From the NCBI GenBank assembly GCA_020444265.1, contig JAHLLH010000001.1:372001-436000 (forward strand): a DNA stretch of 64,000 nt. Reading direction: 5' to 3'. Shown here piece after piece: positions 1,385 through 44,681 of the stretch. Below the pieces are notes generated by a model that was not told where the DNA came from, did no database searches, and saw only the letters and a list, made by a program, of their open reading frames with translations. This DNA is from a bacterium (GTDB lineage: Bacteria > Electryoneota > Electryoneia > Electryoneales > Electryoneaceae). A program made the translations under genes and the position numbers. Each line of letters opens with the position of its first letter. Within the stretch, counting starts at the first letter, position 1.

Positions 1385-4300
1385 GTGCGAAGCAGGTGTT
1401 CCATAAGAAGTAAACAAGGTGGCAACCATGTCATCCACTTCTTGCTCTACCTACTGCTCGCTGTTTTCCTGATTCCACCCAATCACCTGAAGGCAGCGCA
1501 AACACACATCGCCTGGTCCAGGATTGAGCAGCCGGACACACTCCAATTCGATTCGATCATCGGGGCAGTCAACTTGGATACAATCTATCTGCTTGATCAG
1601 CAGAAGAGAATCATTGCGAAAGAAGGTATCGCATTCCGAGTGCTCCCACCCCTGACACGTGAAACTTTTTCACATATAGTCACGCATTTTGATGCAGATC
1701 GCCATCTTTTCGCAACAGTTCTCGATTCCGGGTACGCTTCCGAGTCTTTCTTGTGGGATGGCAAACGCTGGGAATCATTAGGGTTGATGCATGATGTCCC
1801 GGTTCGGCTGTTCACTTTTGGCCCAAATGGCAGTATCTATGCCGCCGGGGACTGGGGAACTATCTTCCGTCGCAAACCTGGTGGGACATGGCAGCAACTC
1901 GATTCTCCAAGTTCTCAGCATATTCTGGGTTTGCTTGTTCTCGGTGATGAGGATTATTGGATCGGGGCACGAGGCGAGGGTTTGTACCACATTCACGAGC
2001 AGGAAGTCGATCAGTATACATCACCTGCCACGGATTACGTTGATGTTAACCAACTAACAAATCTACAGGACGGCACTCTCACCTTCCGGGCGGGATCGGG
2101 CCTCCAGCTTGCTGTCGCAGAGGAGAAGATTGTTCCGATCCACGAGGTCACAGGGCTGGCCGAAAGCTACTTCGTGCGCACGTTAGATGGTAGTCGTGAC
2201 CTTTTTCAATCTCGGCAAAACCTTCTGATCAAGTCCGAACATTCAATAGAAAGCATAGCTTTCCAGGACGAACGGATTCGCCAGGTTCAGTTCCTGTCGG
2301 ACGGTCAGGCGCTGGCTCTTGATCAGGAGGGAGTGCTGCTACGTGGTGATCGGCAACGTGGTCTCTTTTTCCATGATGCAACCAATCGTTTTCGATTGGC
2401 TGGCTATCCGGCTGAAACCGTTCAAGCTGCAATGTTCCACGATCTAACAGGCAATGGTCAGGAAGAGCTGACTGTGCTTGTGAAGGGATCTGCTCCTGGA
2501 CTACATGTCTATGCCCGTGAGCAGCAAGCAGGGTTCTTGGAGATAACCAGCCAGACTGGACTCCCGACAAGTCCGGGAGCAACACATGTCGTACCGGGAG
2601 ACTTTAATCGTGATGGTTGGACAGATCTGGTTCTTTCCCTTATCTCCAAAGATGGGCTTGAACTGATTCAATACAAAAATCTTGGTCGTGGACGCTTTGG
2701 AAATCCAACCTGCACAGACCAGAAGCTCCAACAATTTGACCGTCCATCAGACTTGCTGCCACTTGATCTCGAGGGGGATGGAGATCTCGACTTACTCAGC
2801 GTTGAGTACTATGGCCCTCGTAAGCAGAGACGAGGCGGTGTGAGTTTTTATCAAAACCGAATCGGTGGAAGACTTCATCGGTTGGAAGAAGCTTCCCAAA
2901 CCATGCTGGGGTTTAATCTGCAAGCATTGTGCATGGATTTCAATAGCGATGCTGTACTAGACATGCTGCTCTGCACCCGGTGGATATCCGACAAGTTTTA
3001 CTTCGGTGGTCCAGATGGATTCCTCCTGGCCGACTCAACTGTGCTTCCTACAGGTAATCAGAAAACCAATCGTGAAGGCGGGTTGGCGTTGGATATGGAT
3101 AGTGACGGCGATCTTGATCTATTCTTGATCAACCATCAAAATGGATTTGAAATCTGGAAAAATGATGGGAATGGACAGTTTGCAGACGTGACGACCGAAT
3201 GGTTAAAGACTGAGAAAGAATATCCGTTCGCCCCGACAATACTCGCAGCGGCAGCCGTCGATCTCGATCTTGATGGGGACACGGATATCCTGCTCGCAGC
3301 CCGTAAAGATCAAACACAACAGGTTATTTTACTTGAAAACAGATCAGGTCAGCTGGTTTTGAGCGAAACGTCCATCGGTCTTGAAGATGTGATTCCAGAT
3401 ATTATCCTGCCCGTGGATGTGGATCAGGATGGCGACCTTGATCTCTATATCGCTGGTGAAAAAGGCAACCACCTTTTCCTCAATCGAACTGATCGGAGCG
3501 ACTGGCTAGTCGTCCGCCCGCATGGACGTGGAAGCAATCCCGATGGCTTGCATGCTGTGGTAGATGTTTTTCCAACGGGGGAGGTGTCCAATGCCACTCG
3601 CAGCTCACACCGAAGGGGGTGGTCAGGGGGCAACCTTTTCACAAGACCGCCCTATTCCGGACAAGTACCTAACGAGATTCGATTCGGGGCATTGCAGGGG
3701 GCGCGAGTTGATGTCCGGGTGGAGTTCTATGGTGGGCGTGTTGTATGGAAACGGGACCAGCTGGTAGGCCAGTTTCTGGATGTCTATGAAAGTTACTCGC
3801 TTGCCAGTCTCTCGTACCCGTGGTTTGGACGGCTGCGTAATCAGTTGAGTCGTGCAGATGTTCAGCGTTTTCTGCTAATTTTTATCTTTGCCTCTTTCTG
3901 GATGATTGCTATCGTCCAACTGGGCAGAAAACGATTGCAATGGGGTATTCTGTGGGTCTCATCCCTTGTGTCCCTGAACCAGGCGGCGTTCTGGACGGTC
4001 GCCATTCTCGCCATACGCAGCAATCATCCCTTCAGTTTTATTGCCCCGGTGGGGTTTGTAGTATTGGGAACCATCATCCCTTTCTTGACTTCCTGGAGTT
4101 GGAGACGGTTGAAACAGGCAGATATTCACCGTCAATCAGAGGTACTGCTGAAGCATCTTCTTGTCTTTAATCATGGCGAATGGGCACAGAATAACTTGAA
4201 CAGCCTGCAACGTCTTGTACCGCATTATCTGCAAGCTGAGGAAGAGTCCCCCCAATTGGAAGCGCAATGCCGTGACCGCATCCAGACATGGCAGGATATG

Positions 4301-5008
4301 ACGGCACCAAACCTTACCCAGCTCATCGAGGCAGGTCGTCACCTCTCCACTAAAGCTGTTGTCGTCCGTGGACTTCAGGAAGATGTTCAGTCCTTGCAGA
4401 GGCTTGTAGACGACGTGTCTGCTCGGTTGGCTGGAGGAGAACGTCAGCTTGACACTGACAATTTTGTTGATACCATTCAGGCGATACGAGGTGGGTTAAA
4501 ACAGCTGAAAACACACGTCTATCGGGACCATTCCTGCGATGCCATCGTGGTCGTCCGACATCTTCTCTCCCAGATGGAGGATACGGGTGATCTACATGGG
4601 GTGGAGGTGCATGTCGAGACCGGGCAGGAATCGATGTGGGTTTTGCTGCCATCTTTTGTCCTTGCCGATGTTTTGGACAACCTGTTGCGAAACGCTTTGA
4701 AAGCTTTGAAGGCAGCTGACAACAAGCAAATTCGGATCACAGCACAGAGCATGGGAGCGAAATGCCATCTCTTCGTGACGGATAACGGGTGTGGTATCAG
4801 TTCTGATGCGACGGATGCTATCTTCCTCGAAGGTATCTCACGTGGCGGTAGTGGTCATGGCCTGGCACAGGCGCGGGACCTGCTCAAGCGATTTGGGGGC
4901 GGTATCCATTTGCACTGGAGCGAACCCGGCAAGGGATCAACGTTTCGACTGGACTTGAACGAAGGGGTAAAGCGGAGTGAAAGCGACGCTGCTGATAATA
5001 GACGATGA
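1385..5008 (+). CDS. Exported FG-GAP/ASPIC-UnbV sensor fused to a histidine kinase
   Basis: A 1207-residue transmembrane sensor kinase, here inferred to read an extracytoplasmic signal. It starts with GTG, a basic N-region and a hydrophobic stretch (about residues 16-32) ending near KAAQ, a likely signal peptide. Residues about 40-390 are an unassigned propeller-like region. Residues about 400-690 hold at least six FG-GAP/VCBS calcium loops such as DFNRDGWTDL, DMDSDGDLDL and DVDQDGDLDL. Residues about 706-800 resemble an ASPIC/UnbV module. Three hydrophobic helices follow (about 825-905). The cytoplasmic part has a possible H-box around NHGEW (about 928), an N-box DNLLRNA, a G1 box DNGCGI and a G2 box GSGHGLA, a complete HATPase_c domain. 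It overlaps the response-regulator gene by 32 bases. The kinase call is firm; the H-box is tentative. Confidence 0.85.
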   Translation: MRSRCSIRSKQGGNHVIHFLLYLLLAVFLIPPNHLKAAQTHIAWSRIEQPDTLQFDSIIGAVNLDTIYLLDQQKRIIAKEGIAFRVLPPLTRETFSHIVTHFDADRHLFATVLDSGYASESFLWDGKRWESLGLMHDVPVRLFTFGPNGSIYAAGDWGTIFRRKPGGTWQQLDSPSSQHILGLLVLGDEDYWIGARGEGLYHIHEQEVDQYTSPATDYVDVNQLTNLQDGTLTFRAGSGLQLAVAEEKIVPIHEVTGLAESYFVRTLDGSRDLFQSRQNLLIKSEHSIESIAFQDERIRQVQFLSDGQALALDQEGVLLRGDRQRGLFFHDATNRFRLAGYPAETVQAAMFHDLTGNGQEELTVLVKGSAPGLHVYAREQQAGFLEITSQTGLPTSPGATHVVPGDFNRDGWTDLVLSLISKDGLELIQYKNLGRGRFGNPTCTDQKLQQFDRPSDLLPLDLEGDGDLDLLSVEYYGPRKQRRGGVSFYQNRIGGRLHRLEEASQTMLGFNLQALCMDFNSDAVLDMLLCTRWISDKFYFGGPDGFLLADSTVLPTGNQKTNREGGLALDMDSDGDLDLFLINHQNGFEIWKNDGNGQFADVTTEWLKTEKEYPFAPTILAAAAVDLDLDGDTDILLAARKDQTQQVILLENRSGQLVLSETSIGLEDVIPDIILPVDVDQDGDLDLYIAGEKGNHLFLNRTDRSDWLVVRPHGRGSNPDGLHAVVDVFPTGEVSNATRSSHRRGWSGGNLFTRPPYSGQVPNEIRFGALQGARVDVRVEFYGGRVVWKRDQLVGQFLDVYESYSLASLSYPWFGRLRNQLSRADVQRFLLIFIFASFWMIAIVQLGRKRLQWGILWVSSLVSLNQAAFWTVAILAIRSNHPFSFIAPVGFVVLGTIIPFLTSWSWRRLKQADIHRQSEVLLKHLLVFNHGEWAQNNLNSLQRLVPHYLQAEEESPQLEAQCRDRIQTWQDMTAPNLTQLIEAGRHLSTKAVVVRGLQEDVQSLQRLVDDVSARLAGGERQLDTDNFVDTIQAIRGGLKQLKTHVYRDHSCDAIVVVRHLLSQMEDTGDLHGVEVHVETGQESMWVLLPSFVLADVLDNLLRNALKALKAADNKQIRITAQSMGAKCHLFVTDNGCGISSDATDAIFLEGISRGGSGHGLAQARDLLKRFGGGIHLHWSEPGKGSTFRLDLNEGVKRSESDAADNRR

Positions 5009-6362
5009 TCCTGGGTTCCGTGAGGATTTGACCCTGTTGCTGGGGTCCAGCTACGATTGCCTGGTAGCTGCTGACTGGGCGCGAGCTGAGGCTATCCTCG
5101 AGAGCGAAGCGCTAGAAGTTGTACTACTCGATTTGTTGTTTGGTGACATGGCAAAAGGGATCGATTACCTAGAGACCATTCACAAACTGGATCCCGCTCT
5201 TCCGGTCATCCTGATCACCGAACACGCTTCCGTGGATACCGCCGTAGAGGCAATGAAGCGGGGAGCATTCAGCTACATCTCCAAGTCAACCTCGCCAGAC
5301 GAGCTGACTATCCTGATCGAAAAAGCACGGCAAGAACGACGGTTGCGTCTTCGTACACGTCACCTGCAGGAGGAAGTCAACCAGGATTACTATCGAATAC
5401 TCGGGGAAAGTCCTGCCACAAAAGGACTTCGCCAAAAAATCGCACAAGTAGCTCAGTCCGCCCAAACCGTCCTCATCACAGGAGAAAGCGGGACAGGAAA
5501 AGAGCTTGTAGCCAGGCGTATCCATCAACAAAGTGACCGTAGCTCGAAGCCGTTTATTGCGTTCAACTGCGCTGCCATTCCGCGTGACTTGCTCGAAAAC
5601 GAACTTTTCGGACATGAAGCGGGAGCATTCACCGGTGCCAACAAGCGAAAACCAGGCAAGCTGGAGCTGGCAGCGGATGGTGTCCTTTTTTTCGACGAGA
5701 TCGGTGAGTTGGCTTCAGATGCCCAGGGTAAACTCCTTCGTGTATTAGAAGAACGGGAATATGAACGAGTTGGCGGTGTAAAAACGCTCCAAACAGAAGC
5801 ACGAATTCTCGCTGCGACCAACATCGATTTACACGATGCGATGAGAGATGGGCGGTTTCGTGAAGATCTCTTCTATCGTCTCGAAATGTTCACCATTCAT
5901 GTCCCCCCACTGAGGGAACGAAAAGGTGACATCACGCTGCTTGTTGATCACTTCCTGGTCCGGGCGGCACACGAGATGAAAACACCTGTCAAACACTTTT
6001 CCAAGGAAGCTTTGGATGCCTTCCATACATACGATTGGCCTGGGAATATCCGTGAACTTCGAAACGCAGTCCTTAGTGCAGCGCTGATCGCAACAGAAGA
6101 GGAGATCGGGATAAGGCATTTGAATCCTCGTCTTGTGACGAAAGGTAGCGCGAGTGGCTCAGCAGATCGTGTACCTGCTACCTGGGCTGAAATGGATACA
6201 ATGCGGCAGGAAGCGGCGGATGCAGCGAGCCGTGAGGTGGAAACCCGATTCCTGAGAGAGTTGCTGATTCGTCACTCGGGAAACATCAGCAAGGCAGCTG
6301 AGCAGATTGGCATCCATCGAAGTAATCTTCATAGAATGTTGAAACGATGTGGTCTGGACTGA
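4977..6362 (+). CDS. NtrC-family sigma-54-dependent response regulator
   Basis: A 461-residue transcription activator that, when phosphorylated, remodels RNA polymerase-sigma54. The GTG start lies inside the kinase gene (32-base overlap), indicating a translationally coupled cognate pair. The receiver domain (1-120) has the acid pocket D10/D11, phospho-acceptor D52 and K103. The AAA+ domain has Walker A GESGTGKE, the sigma54-contacting loop GAFTGA (from residue 216), Walker B VLFFDEIGEL and GNIRELRN. The C-terminus is a Fis-type helix-turn-helix (GNISKAAEQIGIHRSNL). No domain is missing. A terminator and then a -24/-12 promoter follow directly, so the next genes are its obvious candidate target. 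Confidence 0.95.
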   Translation: MKATLLIIDDDPGFREDLTLLLGSSYDCLVAADWARAEAILESEALEVVLLDLLFGDMAKGIDYLETIHKLDPALPVILITEHASVDTAVEAMKRGAFSYISKSTSPDELTILIEKARQERRLRLRTRHLQEEVNQDYYRILGESPATKGLRQKIAQVAQSAQTVLITGESGTGKELVARRIHQQSDRSSKPFIAFNCAAIPRDLLENELFGHEAGAFTGANKRKPGKLELAADGVLFFDEIGELASDAQGKLLRVLEEREYERVGGVKTLQTEARILAATNIDLHDAMRDGRFREDLFYRLEMFTIHVPPLRERKGDITLLVDHFLVRAAHEMKTPVKHFSKEALDAFHTYDWPGNIRELRNAVLSAALIATEEEIGIRHLNPRLVTKGSASGSADRVPATWAEMDTMRQEAADAASREVETRFLRELLIRHSGNISKAAEQIGIHRSNLHRMLKRCGLD

Positions 6363-6388
6363 CCATATGTCGCGTAGTAACGCAACAG

Positions 6389-6415
6389 TGACGCTCGCAA
6401 GAGCGTCATTTTTTT
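6389..6415 (+). terminator. Rho-independent terminator after the NtrC-type regulator
   Basis: Stem TGACGCTC/GAGCGTCA with loop GCAA (6389-6408), followed by seven T residues. It separates the kinase-regulator operon from the sigma-54 promoter downstream. Confidence 0.92.
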
Positions 6416-6481
6416 ATTCCCCCAGCGAACGTCACTTCCCCAAACCTCAGTTAAACAACAACTAATGACTGGCCTTCAAAT

Positions 6482-6497
6482 TGGCATTGCGATTGCA
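6482..6497 (+). promoter_or_regulatory. Sigma-54 (-24/-12) promoter
   Basis: TGGCATTGCGATTGCA fits the sigma-54 consensus TGGCAYRNNNNTTGCW with correct spacing: GG at 6483-6484, GC at 6495-6496 and ten bases between them. Transcription would start near 6508, about 58 bases before the likely start of the receiver protein. The upstream 65 bases are AT-rich and include an imperfect dyad, CAGT (6448) and ACTG (6468), that could serve as an activator site. The promoter lies directly behind a sigma-54 activator gene. Confidence 0.8.
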
Positions 6498-6565
6498 TTT
6501 GGGAAATTCGGGATTACTGAAGCTGTGCGATGGGGACCACACACGCAAGTCAGGGCCGGCAGAAA

Positions 6566-6955
6566 ATGATTTCAGGGGTGGTACAGGAGGACACGATTCT
6601 AATCATCGATGATGATGATGTCTATGTTGAAGACATAGCTATCATGTTACGAAATAAATACAGAATAATTCATATAAAGTCATTAGACAGGGTTTGTGAA
6701 ACGATTATCACCGATAAACCCTCAATAATCCTATCGGATATGTTTCTTGGAGATGATGAAACAGGGATGGAGCTGTTCTCGATGCTGGAAAAATTGGATC
6801 ATGCTCCACCGGTTGTGATGATGAGTGATCGACCATCAGTAAAAGTGATTGTAGAAGCGATGAACCGAGGAGCAGTGACCTTCATGCCAAAATCTGCTGG
6901 TGTGGATGAGTTGACAAGCATTCTCGAGCAGGTACTTGAAGACAGAAAGAGTTGA
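6566..6955 (+). CDS. Single-domain response regulator (receiver only)
   Basis: A 129-residue CheY-like receiver with no output domain. Acid pocket IIDDDD (residues 13-18), phospho-acceptor D58 in LSDMFLGD, switch S87 and K109 are present. Its C-terminal part (VEAMNRGAVTFMPKS, DELTSIL) closely parallels the receiver of the upstream NtrC-type protein (VEAMKRGAFSYISKS, DELTILI), which suggests duplication from that domain. The start was chosen at ATG 6566, with AGGG about 10 bases upstream; ATG 6530 would give 141 residues. Codon use is more AT-rich than in its neighbours. It is the first gene behind the sigma-54 promoter and lies 36 bases before the lipoprotein gene. It could be a phosphate sink, competitor or relay for the upstream kinase (inference). 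Confidence 0.88.
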   Translation: MISGVVQEDTILIIDDDDVYVEDIAIMLRNKYRIIHIKSLDRVCETIITDKPSIILSDMFLGDDETGMELFSMLEKLDHAPPVVMMSDRPSVKVIVEAMNRGAVTFMPKSAGVDELTSILEQVLEDRKS

Positions 6956-6991
6956 TCGATAACGAAATCCTAGAAAAAAGAAGGTGAGATC

Positions 6992-8674
6992 ATGATTGCA
7001 AAACACAGGAACTGGCTGCTGGCACTCTTGCTTCCCGTTCTCATGTTCAGCTTGGTACTGGGTACCGGGTGTGATGCACTGGACCCGGATGATGATGAAG
7101 ACGACTACACCTCACCGCCCTCAGAACTGTTGGGCGAATGGTACCTGTTTGCTGGGACCAATGAAGGTGATTCCGAGATGTACGACCTTTCGTTCCTGGA
7201 GATTGGTGTCGAGTTGTATGTGAATAGCGAATCCGCGACTCGTTTCCGCATGGACGTTGATGGGGACATCTCCGAAGGTGCCATTGACTGGCGGACAAGT
7301 AGCCGTAACGAATACCTCGTCTTCATCGAGGATGGGGATGAGACGGAAATCCAGGTCTTGTCTCGTTCGGAAGAACTGATCCAGTTGATGGTTCCGAATG
7401 ACGAGGGTGAAGACCAACTATGGGTTATGGCCAAAGGCAATTTCATGGTTGCCGGCCTGGTTACCGACATTGCGACTAGCCTTCCGATTGCAGGAGCGTC
7501 GATTACAGTGTACGACGAGGAAGAATCGGTCATTTTTAACGGTATCACTGCTGACCTTGGTGTTTTCCTCGCCACAGATCTCGATGCCGGTGACCTGATG
7601 ATTGAATTCGAAAAAGATGGCTACCGGACAGAGACCGAATCCTTCTCGATTGACTATGATCGCCCCGTCTTTGTGATGTGCCCGATGTACACGGGCGGTG
7701 GTAGCTCCGAAGAAGGGTGGATTGCTGGACTCGTCACAGATTCTGCCAACGGCCAACCTCTTGCTGGGGCAACGGTCCAGACAGTCGATGGTGAAGTTCG
7801 GACCACAACCGATTCGAACGGTAGTTATTCCCTCACGGTGGATGCAGGTACGTTCACTATCGTTGCATCGATGACCGGCTACGCAGACTACCAGGAACAG
7901 GTCAATGTAACCGCCGGGAATACGGCAACAGTGGATTTTGAACTTCAGCCAGGATCAACTGGTGGTGAAGGAACCGTAACAGGAATGGTAACCGCATCAC
8001 AGTCTGGTGATCCGCTCGAAGGTGTTTCCATCAGTGTCGTGGGTGGAACAGCAACCACAACCACCGATGCGTCCGGTGAATATACATTGATCGTCCCAGC
8101 TGGCATACAGCAGCTCAGCGCATCATTCACAGGGTACTACGCACTTACCGCTGATCTTTTCATCACTGCAGACGAAGATCACACCCAGAACTTCTCGCTG
8201 TCTCCGATAATCTCTGCGGGTAGTGGTGGCATGCGCATGGTGTTGTCCTGGGGGGAAAGCCCGTCCGACCTGGACAGCCACCTGCTAACGCCCGAGATCG
8301 ACGGTAGCGAGTATCATGTCTACTTCGGTAACCGTGGTGATTCGCTTGATGTCCCTTATGCCCGTCTCGATGTAGATGACACAAGTGGGTACGGCCCGGA
8401 AACAATCACGATTTACGAGGCGCAGCCCGGTACCTATCGCTACTACATCTACAACTGGTCTGGTACCCCTGACATTGCGGGTTGTGGCGCGCAGGTTCAG
8501 ATGTATAATGAAGATGGTTTGATTCAGACAGTCACAGTCCCCGCATCGGGAGAAGGTGACTACTGGTACGTCTGCGATATCGATGGAACGGATGGTTCCG
8601 TGACATTGGTGAATGAAATCCGTGACACAACTCCGGATTTCAGCCCCGGCACCGCAGCGTACAAAGCTCGTTAG
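6992..8674 (+). CDS. Lipoprotein with three carboxypeptidase-regulatory-like domains and a DUF2135-like C-terminus
   Basis: A 560-residue protein. The signal peptide ends in the lipobox LGTGC (Cys 27), so it is probably lipidated and anchored in the envelope. An acidic linker (DPDDDEDD) leads into a roughly 100-residue lipocalin-like beta domain starting LLGEWYLFAG. Three CarboxypepD_reg-like beta-sandwich repeats follow, recognisable by AGLVTDxxxGxPLAGA and TDxxGxYxL patterns. The last 150 residues (MRMVLSWGESPSDLDSHL onward, with aromatic YRYYIYNWSG) resemble the YfaP/DUF2135 domain. A clear AAGGTGAG ribosome site precedes ATG 6992. It lies behind the receiver gene and probably shares its sigma-54 promoter. 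The ligand is unknown. Confidence 0.8.
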   Translation: MIAKHRNWLLALLLPVLMFSLVLGTGCDALDPDDDEDDYTSPPSELLGEWYLFAGTNEGDSEMYDLSFLEIGVELYVNSESATRFRMDVDGDISEGAIDWRTSSRNEYLVFIEDGDETEIQVLSRSEELIQLMVPNDEGEDQLWVMAKGNFMVAGLVTDIATSLPIAGASITVYDEEESVIFNGITADLGVFLATDLDAGDLMIEFEKDGYRTETESFSIDYDRPVFVMCPMYTGGGSSEEGWIAGLVTDSANGQPLAGATVQTVDGEVRTTTDSNGSYSLTVDAGTFTIVASMTGYADYQEQVNVTAGNTATVDFELQPGSTGGEGTVTGMVTASQSGDPLEGVSISVVGGTATTTTDASGEYTLIVPAGIQQLSASFTGYYALTADLFITADEDHTQNFSLSPIISAGSGGMRMVLSWGESPSDLDSHLLTPEIDGSEYHVYFGNRGDSLDVPYARLDVDDTSGYGPETITIYEAQPGTYRYYIYNWSGTPDIAGCGAQVQMYNEDGLIQTVTVPASGEGDYWYVCDIDGTDGSVTLVNEIRDTTPDFSPGTAAYKAR

Positions 8675-8711
8675 TGGCCGACTCTACTATTTCTTCTGGT
8701 TACTAGCCTGC

Positions 8712-8744
8712 GGGGCAGAGTCTTCGGATTCTGCCCTGCTTTCT
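8712..8744 (+). terminator. Rho-independent terminator after the lipoprotein gene
   Basis: Ten-base stem GGGCAGAGTC/GATTCTGCCC around a TTCG tetraloop (8713-8736), followed by TGCTTTCTCT. Confidence 0.85.
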
Positions 8745-43787: not shown

Positions 43788-44681
43788 ATGTCCGATCTGC
43801 CGAACCTGATGGATGGAAAAAAAATAGCCGATGCGATGCGCGCCGAAATCGGCGACGAGGTGGCGCTCCGTGCCAAGGAAGGCCGTCAGCCCGGCTTGGC
43901 GGTTATCCTGGTTGGGGATGATCCTGCATCCAACATCTATGTTGGAACCAAGGAAAAGGCCTGTCAGGCGGCAGGGATCCTGTCATTTGTCGAACGGATG
44001 CCAGCCGACATCGACCAGCAGACCCTGCTGAACAAGGTTCGTGAGATCAACGAAGATGACCGATTCCATGGTCTTCTCGTCCAATCGCCGCTTCCGAAGC
44101 ATCTTGATGAAGAGGAGGTTGTCCGTGCGATTGATCCGCGCAAGGATGTGGATGGGTTTCACCCTTTTAACCTCGGCCTGCTGGCGTTGAACCAGCCGAG
44201 ATTTGTCGCCTGCACACCGCTAGGTGTGATGGAGATGCTGGAACGCTACAATGTTGATCCATCGGGCAAACATGCTGTGGTGCTGGGACGCAGTCACATC
44301 GTCGGTACCCCGATGGCACTTTTACTGCAACGGAAGGCAAAAGGCGCCAATGCGACGGTAACCATTTGCCATAGCCGCACGCAGGATATCGCATCTTACA
44401 CACGCCAGGCGGATATCCTGGTTGCCGCCATTGGGCAGGCCAACTTCGTGAAAGAGGAGATGGTCAAGGATGGTGCGGTAGTGATTGATGTGGGCATCAA
44501 CCGTGTCGAGGATGCGACGAAAAAGAAGGGGTATCGTATCGTCGGCGATGTCGATTTTGCCGCTGTGCAGCCAAAAGCCAGTCTGATCACTCCGGTTCCG
44601 GGTGGAGTGGGGCGGATGACAATTGCCCTGCTGCTGAAGAACACCCTGCTTGCCGAGGAACTGATCCACAATTCGAAGTAA
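43788..44681 (+). CDS. folD: Methylenetetrahydrofolate dehydrogenase/cyclohydrolase
   Basis: A 297-residue bifunctional one-carbon enzyme (5,10-methylene-THF to 10-formyl-THF). The catalytic Lys lies in YVGTKEKACQ; other signatures are LVQSPLPKHL, DGFHPFNLG, GRSHIVGTPMA and TPVPGGVGRMT. ATG 43788 is preferred over the adjacent GTG because GGAG is 8 bases upstream. It is the last gene of the run before a bidirectional terminator. Confidence 0.97.
   Translation: MSDLPNLMDGKKIADAMRAEIGDEVALRAKEGRQPGLAVILVGDDPASNIYVGTKEKACQAAGILSFVERMPADIDQQTLLNKVREINEDDRFHGLLVQSPLPKHLDEEEVVRAIDPRKDVDGFHPFNLGLLALNQPRFVACTPLGVMEMLERYNVDPSGKHAVVLGRSHIVGTPMALLLQRKAKGANATVTICHSRTQDIASYTRQADILVAAIGQANFVKEEMVKDGAVVIDVGINRVEDATKKKGYRIVGDVDFAAVQPKASLITPVPGGVGRMTIALLLKNTLLAEELIHNSK

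Follow-up and report, generated by a model that had tools for sequence, protein, structure and literature searches.

A putative dedicated sigma-54 two-component circuit with an FG-GAP/UnbV-type sensor kinase and exchangeable target genes

Introduction

ZraPSR (HydHG) of Escherichia coli is an NtrC-family sigma-54 system with essentially one high-affinity target, which lies beside its own genes and encodes an exported protein (PMC8249747). In the QseE/QseG/QseF system of enterobacteria (GlrK/GlrR), the lipoprotein QseG controls the kinase QseE from the periplasm, and the paper that describes this reports no autoregulation of qseEGF (PMC6075780). A further point of reference is Osp of Rhodobacter sphaeroides, a single-domain response regulator that is expressed under the regulator of its own system and inhibits CckA (PMC9430884). 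The parts of the survey by Francke et al. (2011; PMC3162934) drawn on here describe sigma-54 regulons as concerned with the cell exterior, lipoproteins included.

The locus described here lies in a window of 64,000 nucleotides (contig C9, positions 372001-436000) from a genome of 4.33 Mb that is 94% complete on 19 contigs. As in ZraPSR, essentially a single target site is predicted, situated in a spacer next to the kinase and regulator genes, where binding is also predicted. The ATPase domain of the kinase matches the solved structure of ZraS, which along with YycG is among its best structural matches. The locus departs from ZraPSR in its targets, a receiver-only protein and a multidomain lipoprotein instead of a ZraP-type periplasmic zinc-binding protein, in the ectodomain of its sensor, a propeller/FG-GAP/UnbV region of approximately 780 residues, and in the position of the regulated cassette, which is downstream of the activator gene rather than divergent from that of the kinase. 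With QseEGF it shares a link between a sigma-54 two-component system and a cell-envelope lipoprotein, but qseG is located inside the kinase-regulator operon, whereas the lipoprotein gene of the window belongs to a separate downstream operon, is a predicted sigma-54 target and encodes unrelated domains. Membership in either system is ruled out by the target genes and the operon layout, and the mode of action would nevertheless probably be like theirs. Osp provides a precedent for the role proposed below for the receiver-only protein, which is likewise predicted to be under its cognate regulator; CtrA, however, is no sigma-54 activator, and the receiver-only protein appears to derive from the activator family of the circuit. 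The circuit also fits the theme of the cell exterior, and neither its type of sensor nor its enhancer is mentioned in those parts of the survey (PMC3162934).

No description of an FG-GAP/UnbV kinase together with a sigma-54 activator was found in the open-access literature. The locus links these unstudied propeller/FG-GAP/UnbV sensor kinases of uncultured bacteria to a concrete output. The prediction of its enhancer and promoter has single-base precision and extends to relatives in other phyla, so that a single binding or reporter assay would be enough to tie the entire kinase family to a regulon. It would also represent a natural case in which the target has been replaced under a fixed regulator, and one in which a palindrome may act as terminator and enhancer site simultaneously.

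Gene Order and Domain Content

The kinase, the activator, the receiver-only ORF and the probable lipoprotein ORF follow one another in this order on one strand (Table 1).

Table 1. Features of the locus, in window coordinates, with the evidence for each.
Feature	Coordinates	Strand	Basis
Sensor histidine kinase, FG-GAP/UnbV-type	1385..5008; likely start 1430	+	ORF, Pfam, topology
NtrC-type response regulator/sigma-54 activator	4977..6362	+	REC and AAA+ with GAFTGA, HTH_8
Distal enhancer dyad TGTCGC-N8-GCAACA, predicted activator site 1	6368..6387	.	Motif matrix, tandem pattern
Proximal enhancer dyad TGACGC-N8-GCGTCA, predicted activator site 2	6389..6408	.	Tandem pattern, offset
Intrinsic terminator of kinase-activator operon	6387..6415; stem 6387-6410, T-run 6409-6415	+	Hairpin, RNA fold
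Predicted sigma-54 -24/-12 promoter TGGCATTGCGATTGCA	6482..6497; predicted +1 at 6508	+	Motif score, register
Receiver-only response-regulator protein, 141 aa	6530..6955	+	ORF, Pfam Response_reg
Probable lipoprotein, 560 aa	6992..8674	+	ORF, three CarboxypepD_reg Pfam domains
Terminator-like hairpin closing target operon	8710..8739	+	Hairpin

A first-pass annotation had proposed a self-contained sigma-54 circuit in which sensor, activator, promoter and target are adjacent, and gene order, domains and promoter agree with that proposal. The overlapping kinase and NtrC-type activator genes it described are borne out by a 32-bp overlap of the two ORFs (1207 and 461 aa), together with their Pfam domains and the GAFTGA loop. 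The terminator it placed after the activator is indeed a hairpin with a T-run, and the -24/-12 promoter it placed before the receiver-only and lipoprotein genes ties for the best score among approximately 128,000 window positions. The sigma-54 dependence that it proposed calls for rpoN, which is present in the same genome (G000; PF00309 above the cut-off). The start it gave for the feature, 4977, needs correction, as this leaves the kinase gene, with an ORF from 1385, outside. Its reading of the palindrome after the activator as a terminator holds, but the enhancer formed by both dyads was overlooked, the second half having been read only as terminator.

The kinase is composed of a signal peptide, a large beta-rich exported region, transmembrane helices, an H-box (FNHGEWA) and an HATPase_c domain. 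Pfam identifies the FG-GAP repeats and HATPase_c, and gives no HisKA match in the DHp region. The residues of the F-x-H-G-E box, the N-box and the G-box are invariant across four kinase orthologs, and the His of the F-x-H-G-E box would be the phospho-accepting residue. The solved structures matched by the ectodomain are those of cartilage acidic protein 1 and integrin alpha-4; the AlphaFold model of the kinase, with a mean pLDDT of 56, is too poor for use. It is the topology of the protein that suggests an envelope sensor. A tRNA-Sec gene (anticodon tca; 1165-1258) is found immediately 5' of the kinase gene.

The activator contains Response_reg, Sigma54_activat, AAA lid and HTH_8 (Fis-type HTH) domains, and its GAFTGA loop is intact when read directly in the translation. 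Its closest match among 41 genomes, at 54% identity, is in G039, with a kinase of the same type alongside, split over two contigs.

The Regulatory Region

The spacer after the activator gene holds two 20-bp dyads, 21 bp apart. The predicted +1 lies approximately 110 and 131 bp downstream of their centres. In relatives, the intergenic regions carry two such dyads in tandem, TGTTGC-N8-GCAACA, again 20 bp long and offset by 21 bp. A matrix (PWM) trained solely on the relative loci L033, L092 and L094 ranks window position 6368 first among 63,960 (18.2; runner-up 12.1). The same tandem is the top match of this matrix in L132, L133 and L135 (twice in L135), none of which was used in training, and L134 has one good half of the tandem only. 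In L095, the ortholog in G043, kinase and activator are both conserved, and neither the 450 bp upstream nor the sequence following the activator contains recognisable tandem dyads. As a fixed pattern, the tandem has one match in the entire genome of the window, at 6368-6408 (control 0), and every match in G039, G041, G042, G065 and G280 adjoins a kinase-activator pair. The single match in G069, which lies elsewhere and has no sigma-54-like site in register, was rejected as chance.

On the transcript, the activator terminator folds at -21.6 kcal/mol (z -6.2), and the proximal dyad doubles as its stem. The offset and spacing of this dyad fit the family and its half-sites do so only poorly; we thus put its service as both terminator stem and enhancer site at somewhat better than even, and no higher. 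Separately, L135 carries two complete enhancer-promoter cassettes on one short contig (294-424 and 3182-3312), one of which precedes a lipoprotein gene while the other is divergent from the kinase.

The promoter-like element, TGGCATT-GCGA-TTGCA, has the GG-N10-GC spacing. The equal-scoring site in the window, at 44314, was discarded as it falls inside a coding ORF. Genome-wide, TGGCAY-N5-TTGCW has 22 matches versus 9 for its reversed control, many of them intergenic (before an FlgD-like gene, for example), so that a correctly oriented match within the 167-bp gap is very unlikely to occur by chance. The relation of promoter to enhancer is also constant: in each of nine cassettes, the highest-scoring sigma-54-like site within 220 bp places the predicted +1 109-114 bp away from the middle of the proximal dyad, the value in the window being 109. 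In the best 7-bp register the mean promoter score is 18.4, whereas 2000 sets of Markov-resampled flanks gave a maximum of 11.5 +/- 0.38 under the null, and none was as good (0/2000; highest value 12.9). At -12, TTGA replaces TTGC in several relatives, and their elements are weaker than that of the window; rpoN is present in 7/8 relatives, the exception being a genome that is 59% complete. The sequence elements that define targets of NtrC-family activators, a -24/-12 promoter and an enhancer approximately 100 bp or more upstream, are both present.

Distribution and Exchange of Target Genes

Relatives of the locus were found through an alignment of the C-terminal part of the activator, a search of the genome contigs with the kinase as query having returned none. 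Full-length pairs were recovered from two Neomarinimicrobiota and one 'FCB group' record, and the KSB1 record, G039, was returned as well. A profile of the N-terminal region of the kinase then places it in 7/245 Neomarinimicrobiota genomes, four of them new, and these searches gave no kinase ortholog in any of the 38 further genomes from the phylum to which the window belongs. So patchy a distribution of the sensor-activator unit suggests horizontal transfer or loss. The kinases of the relatives all share the signal peptide, the beta-rich ectodomain with FG-GAP repeats, the transmembrane helices and the F-x-H-G-E box before the ATPase domain.

The genes attached to the unit are a different matter. 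In seven of the relatives' loci, the operon behind the promoter encodes a double zinc-ribbon protein of approximately 70-80 aa, the gene of which stands alone, after a small lipoprotein gene (L092), or beside the second, lipoprotein-driving cassette (L135). At several of these loci there follow exported proteins that bear cleaved-adhesin, PKD and C-terminal sorting domains. The double zinc-ribbon gene is absent from the window, where the promoter precedes the genes of the receiver-only protein and the lipoprotein instead. Of the 39 genomes of the phylum, 15 contain relatives of this lipoprotein. That these relatives also carry the promoter was considered and dismissed, since none of their best sites within 400 bp upstream is as strong as that of the window. 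A shared regulatory unit with differing attached genes, and lipoprotein relatives with no comparable promoter, argue, as judged from sequence, for conservation of sensor, activator, enhancer and promoter as one unit and for replacement of the cargo.

The first-pass annotation had looked to related genomes for conservation of the promoter and of the gene order. The promoter part is borne out, in that a -24/-12-like element lies beside the orthologous pairs at a fixed distance from the enhancer; the genes downstream differ. The combination of an FG-GAP sensor with this lipoprotein, which it had thought undescribed, is specific to this genome among those compared.

The Predicted Target Genes

The receiver-only gene is the first after the predicted enhancer and promoter, and control by the cognate regulator is predicted. 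Against the receivers of the circuit activators the protein scores 62-80 bits, compared with at most 47 for the other NtrC-type receivers tested, and in the tree it groups with the circuit activator receivers (98/98). These values point to descent from the circuit's own activator family, with alternative placements unrejected: in the AU test, a position as direct sister of the receiver of its own activator (p 0.33) is not rejected and not shown, and neither is a placement outside the circuit clade rejected (p 0.29). The gene may start at a codon other than the ATG at 6530, which no clear ribosome-binding site precedes. At 6585-6598, a good Shine-Dalgarno AGGAGG is followed by an in-frame ATT where the receiver of the activator would begin.

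The probable lipoprotein has a non-standard lipobox (LGTG-C, deviating at -3), a weak lipocalin-like N-terminal region, three carboxypeptidase-regulatory-like beta-sandwich domains and a C-terminal LxWGexPxDLDSHL domain. Its structure model is a string of beta-sandwich domains and nothing beyond, and the structural matches of that model (pilins, adhesins and carboxypeptidase D) have low TM-scores that indicate the fold type only. Pfam has no family for the C-terminal domain, LxWGexPxDLDSHLxTP (8210-8674), of which many genomes of the phylum have conserved copies in their lipoproteins (L073-L080, L082, L087). The lipoprotein could be the envelope-side output of the circuit, and might in addition act on the sensor as QseG does on QseE.

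Proposed Circuit and Alternative Readings

Taken as a whole, the locus very probably encodes a dedicated, single-target sigma-54 two-component circuit. An inner-membrane kinase with its exported propeller/FG-GAP/UnbV region would phosphorylate the NtrC-type activator, which would bind the two tandem dyads and open the sigma-54 promoter via looped DNA. This would lead to expression of the receiver-only protein and of a lipoprotein placed at the surface or in the periplasm, and the receiver-only protein may draw phosphoryl groups from the kinase, or inhibit it, in negative feedback. Phosphotransfer, DNA binding, sigma-54 dependence and localisation are all predicted from sequence. A more ambitious reading, possible rather than probable and offered tentatively, combines two propositions: that a unit locked in register (109-114 bp) has exchanged its cargo between phyla, here with one half of the enhancer inside the terminator of the activator, and that its first output is an activator-derived receiver which limits the circuit.

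It is highly improbable that the -24/-12 match arose by chance, with transcription of the two genes beyond it owed to read-through from the kinase-activator operon or to a housekeeping promoter that escaped recognition. The terminator between the operons may leak, and the downstream genes are co-directional with the kinase-activator operon, but the hairpin separating them is strong and has a T-run, the + strand of the gap has no sigma-70-like site, and the fixed enhancer-promoter register is common to eight other cassettes. The uniqueness of the tandem-dyad match in the genome, which also argues against a fortuitous promoter, bears in turn on whether the activator has further promoters elsewhere, reached through less canonical sites. 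The -24/-12 set of this genome has approximately 20 other members, and the single-dyad pattern with one mismatch gives 144 matches versus 46 for its control, although a palindromic pattern and a non-palindromic control are not comparable one to one. Set against these counts are the absence of a second tandem match in the genome and the dozens of other activator-type genes present there, which can account for other sigma-54 sites, and a multi-target activator seems a poor prospect. A reading that leaves the circuit real, and that we consider unlikely but less so than the previous one, takes only the distal dyad as the enhancer, with the second palindrome just a terminator and its 21-bp offset a coincidence. 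The half-sites of the proximal dyad depart from the TGTTGC consensus (score 4.9 versus 13.4 for the distal dyad) and the palindrome is an excellent terminator; yet the offset is exact, the N8 spacing is as in other cassettes, one weaker dyad half is present in those cassettes too, and the promoter register fits the proximal dyad.

For the receiver-only protein, negative feedback is the likely and most economical function, by analogy with the action of Osp on CckA. The contrary view, which falls only a little short of an even chance, is that there is no feedback: the protein would pass the signal on to a different partner, or would be a duplicate in decay that has no role. Its branch in the tree is very long (2.09 changes per site), and it has no relatives in the 38 other genomes of the phylum, its own activator being the sole relative. 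A decaying copy would, however, tend to lose the acid pocket, the phospho-Asp and the Lys, all of which are intact (with Ser for the usual Thr), and the gene leads the target operon of the circuit itself.

Further -24/-12 sites were observed elsewhere in the same genome. At L106 and L118, strict sites lie 13-55 bp before ORFs that resemble FtsX/MacB-type permeases by sequence, the site in L118 coming after a propeller-like ORF. At L112 (2413-4016), a second activator gene is found behind a kinase-like ORF, with a -24/-12 site 215 bp past its stop; the next ORFs downstream of that site are all oppositely oriented.
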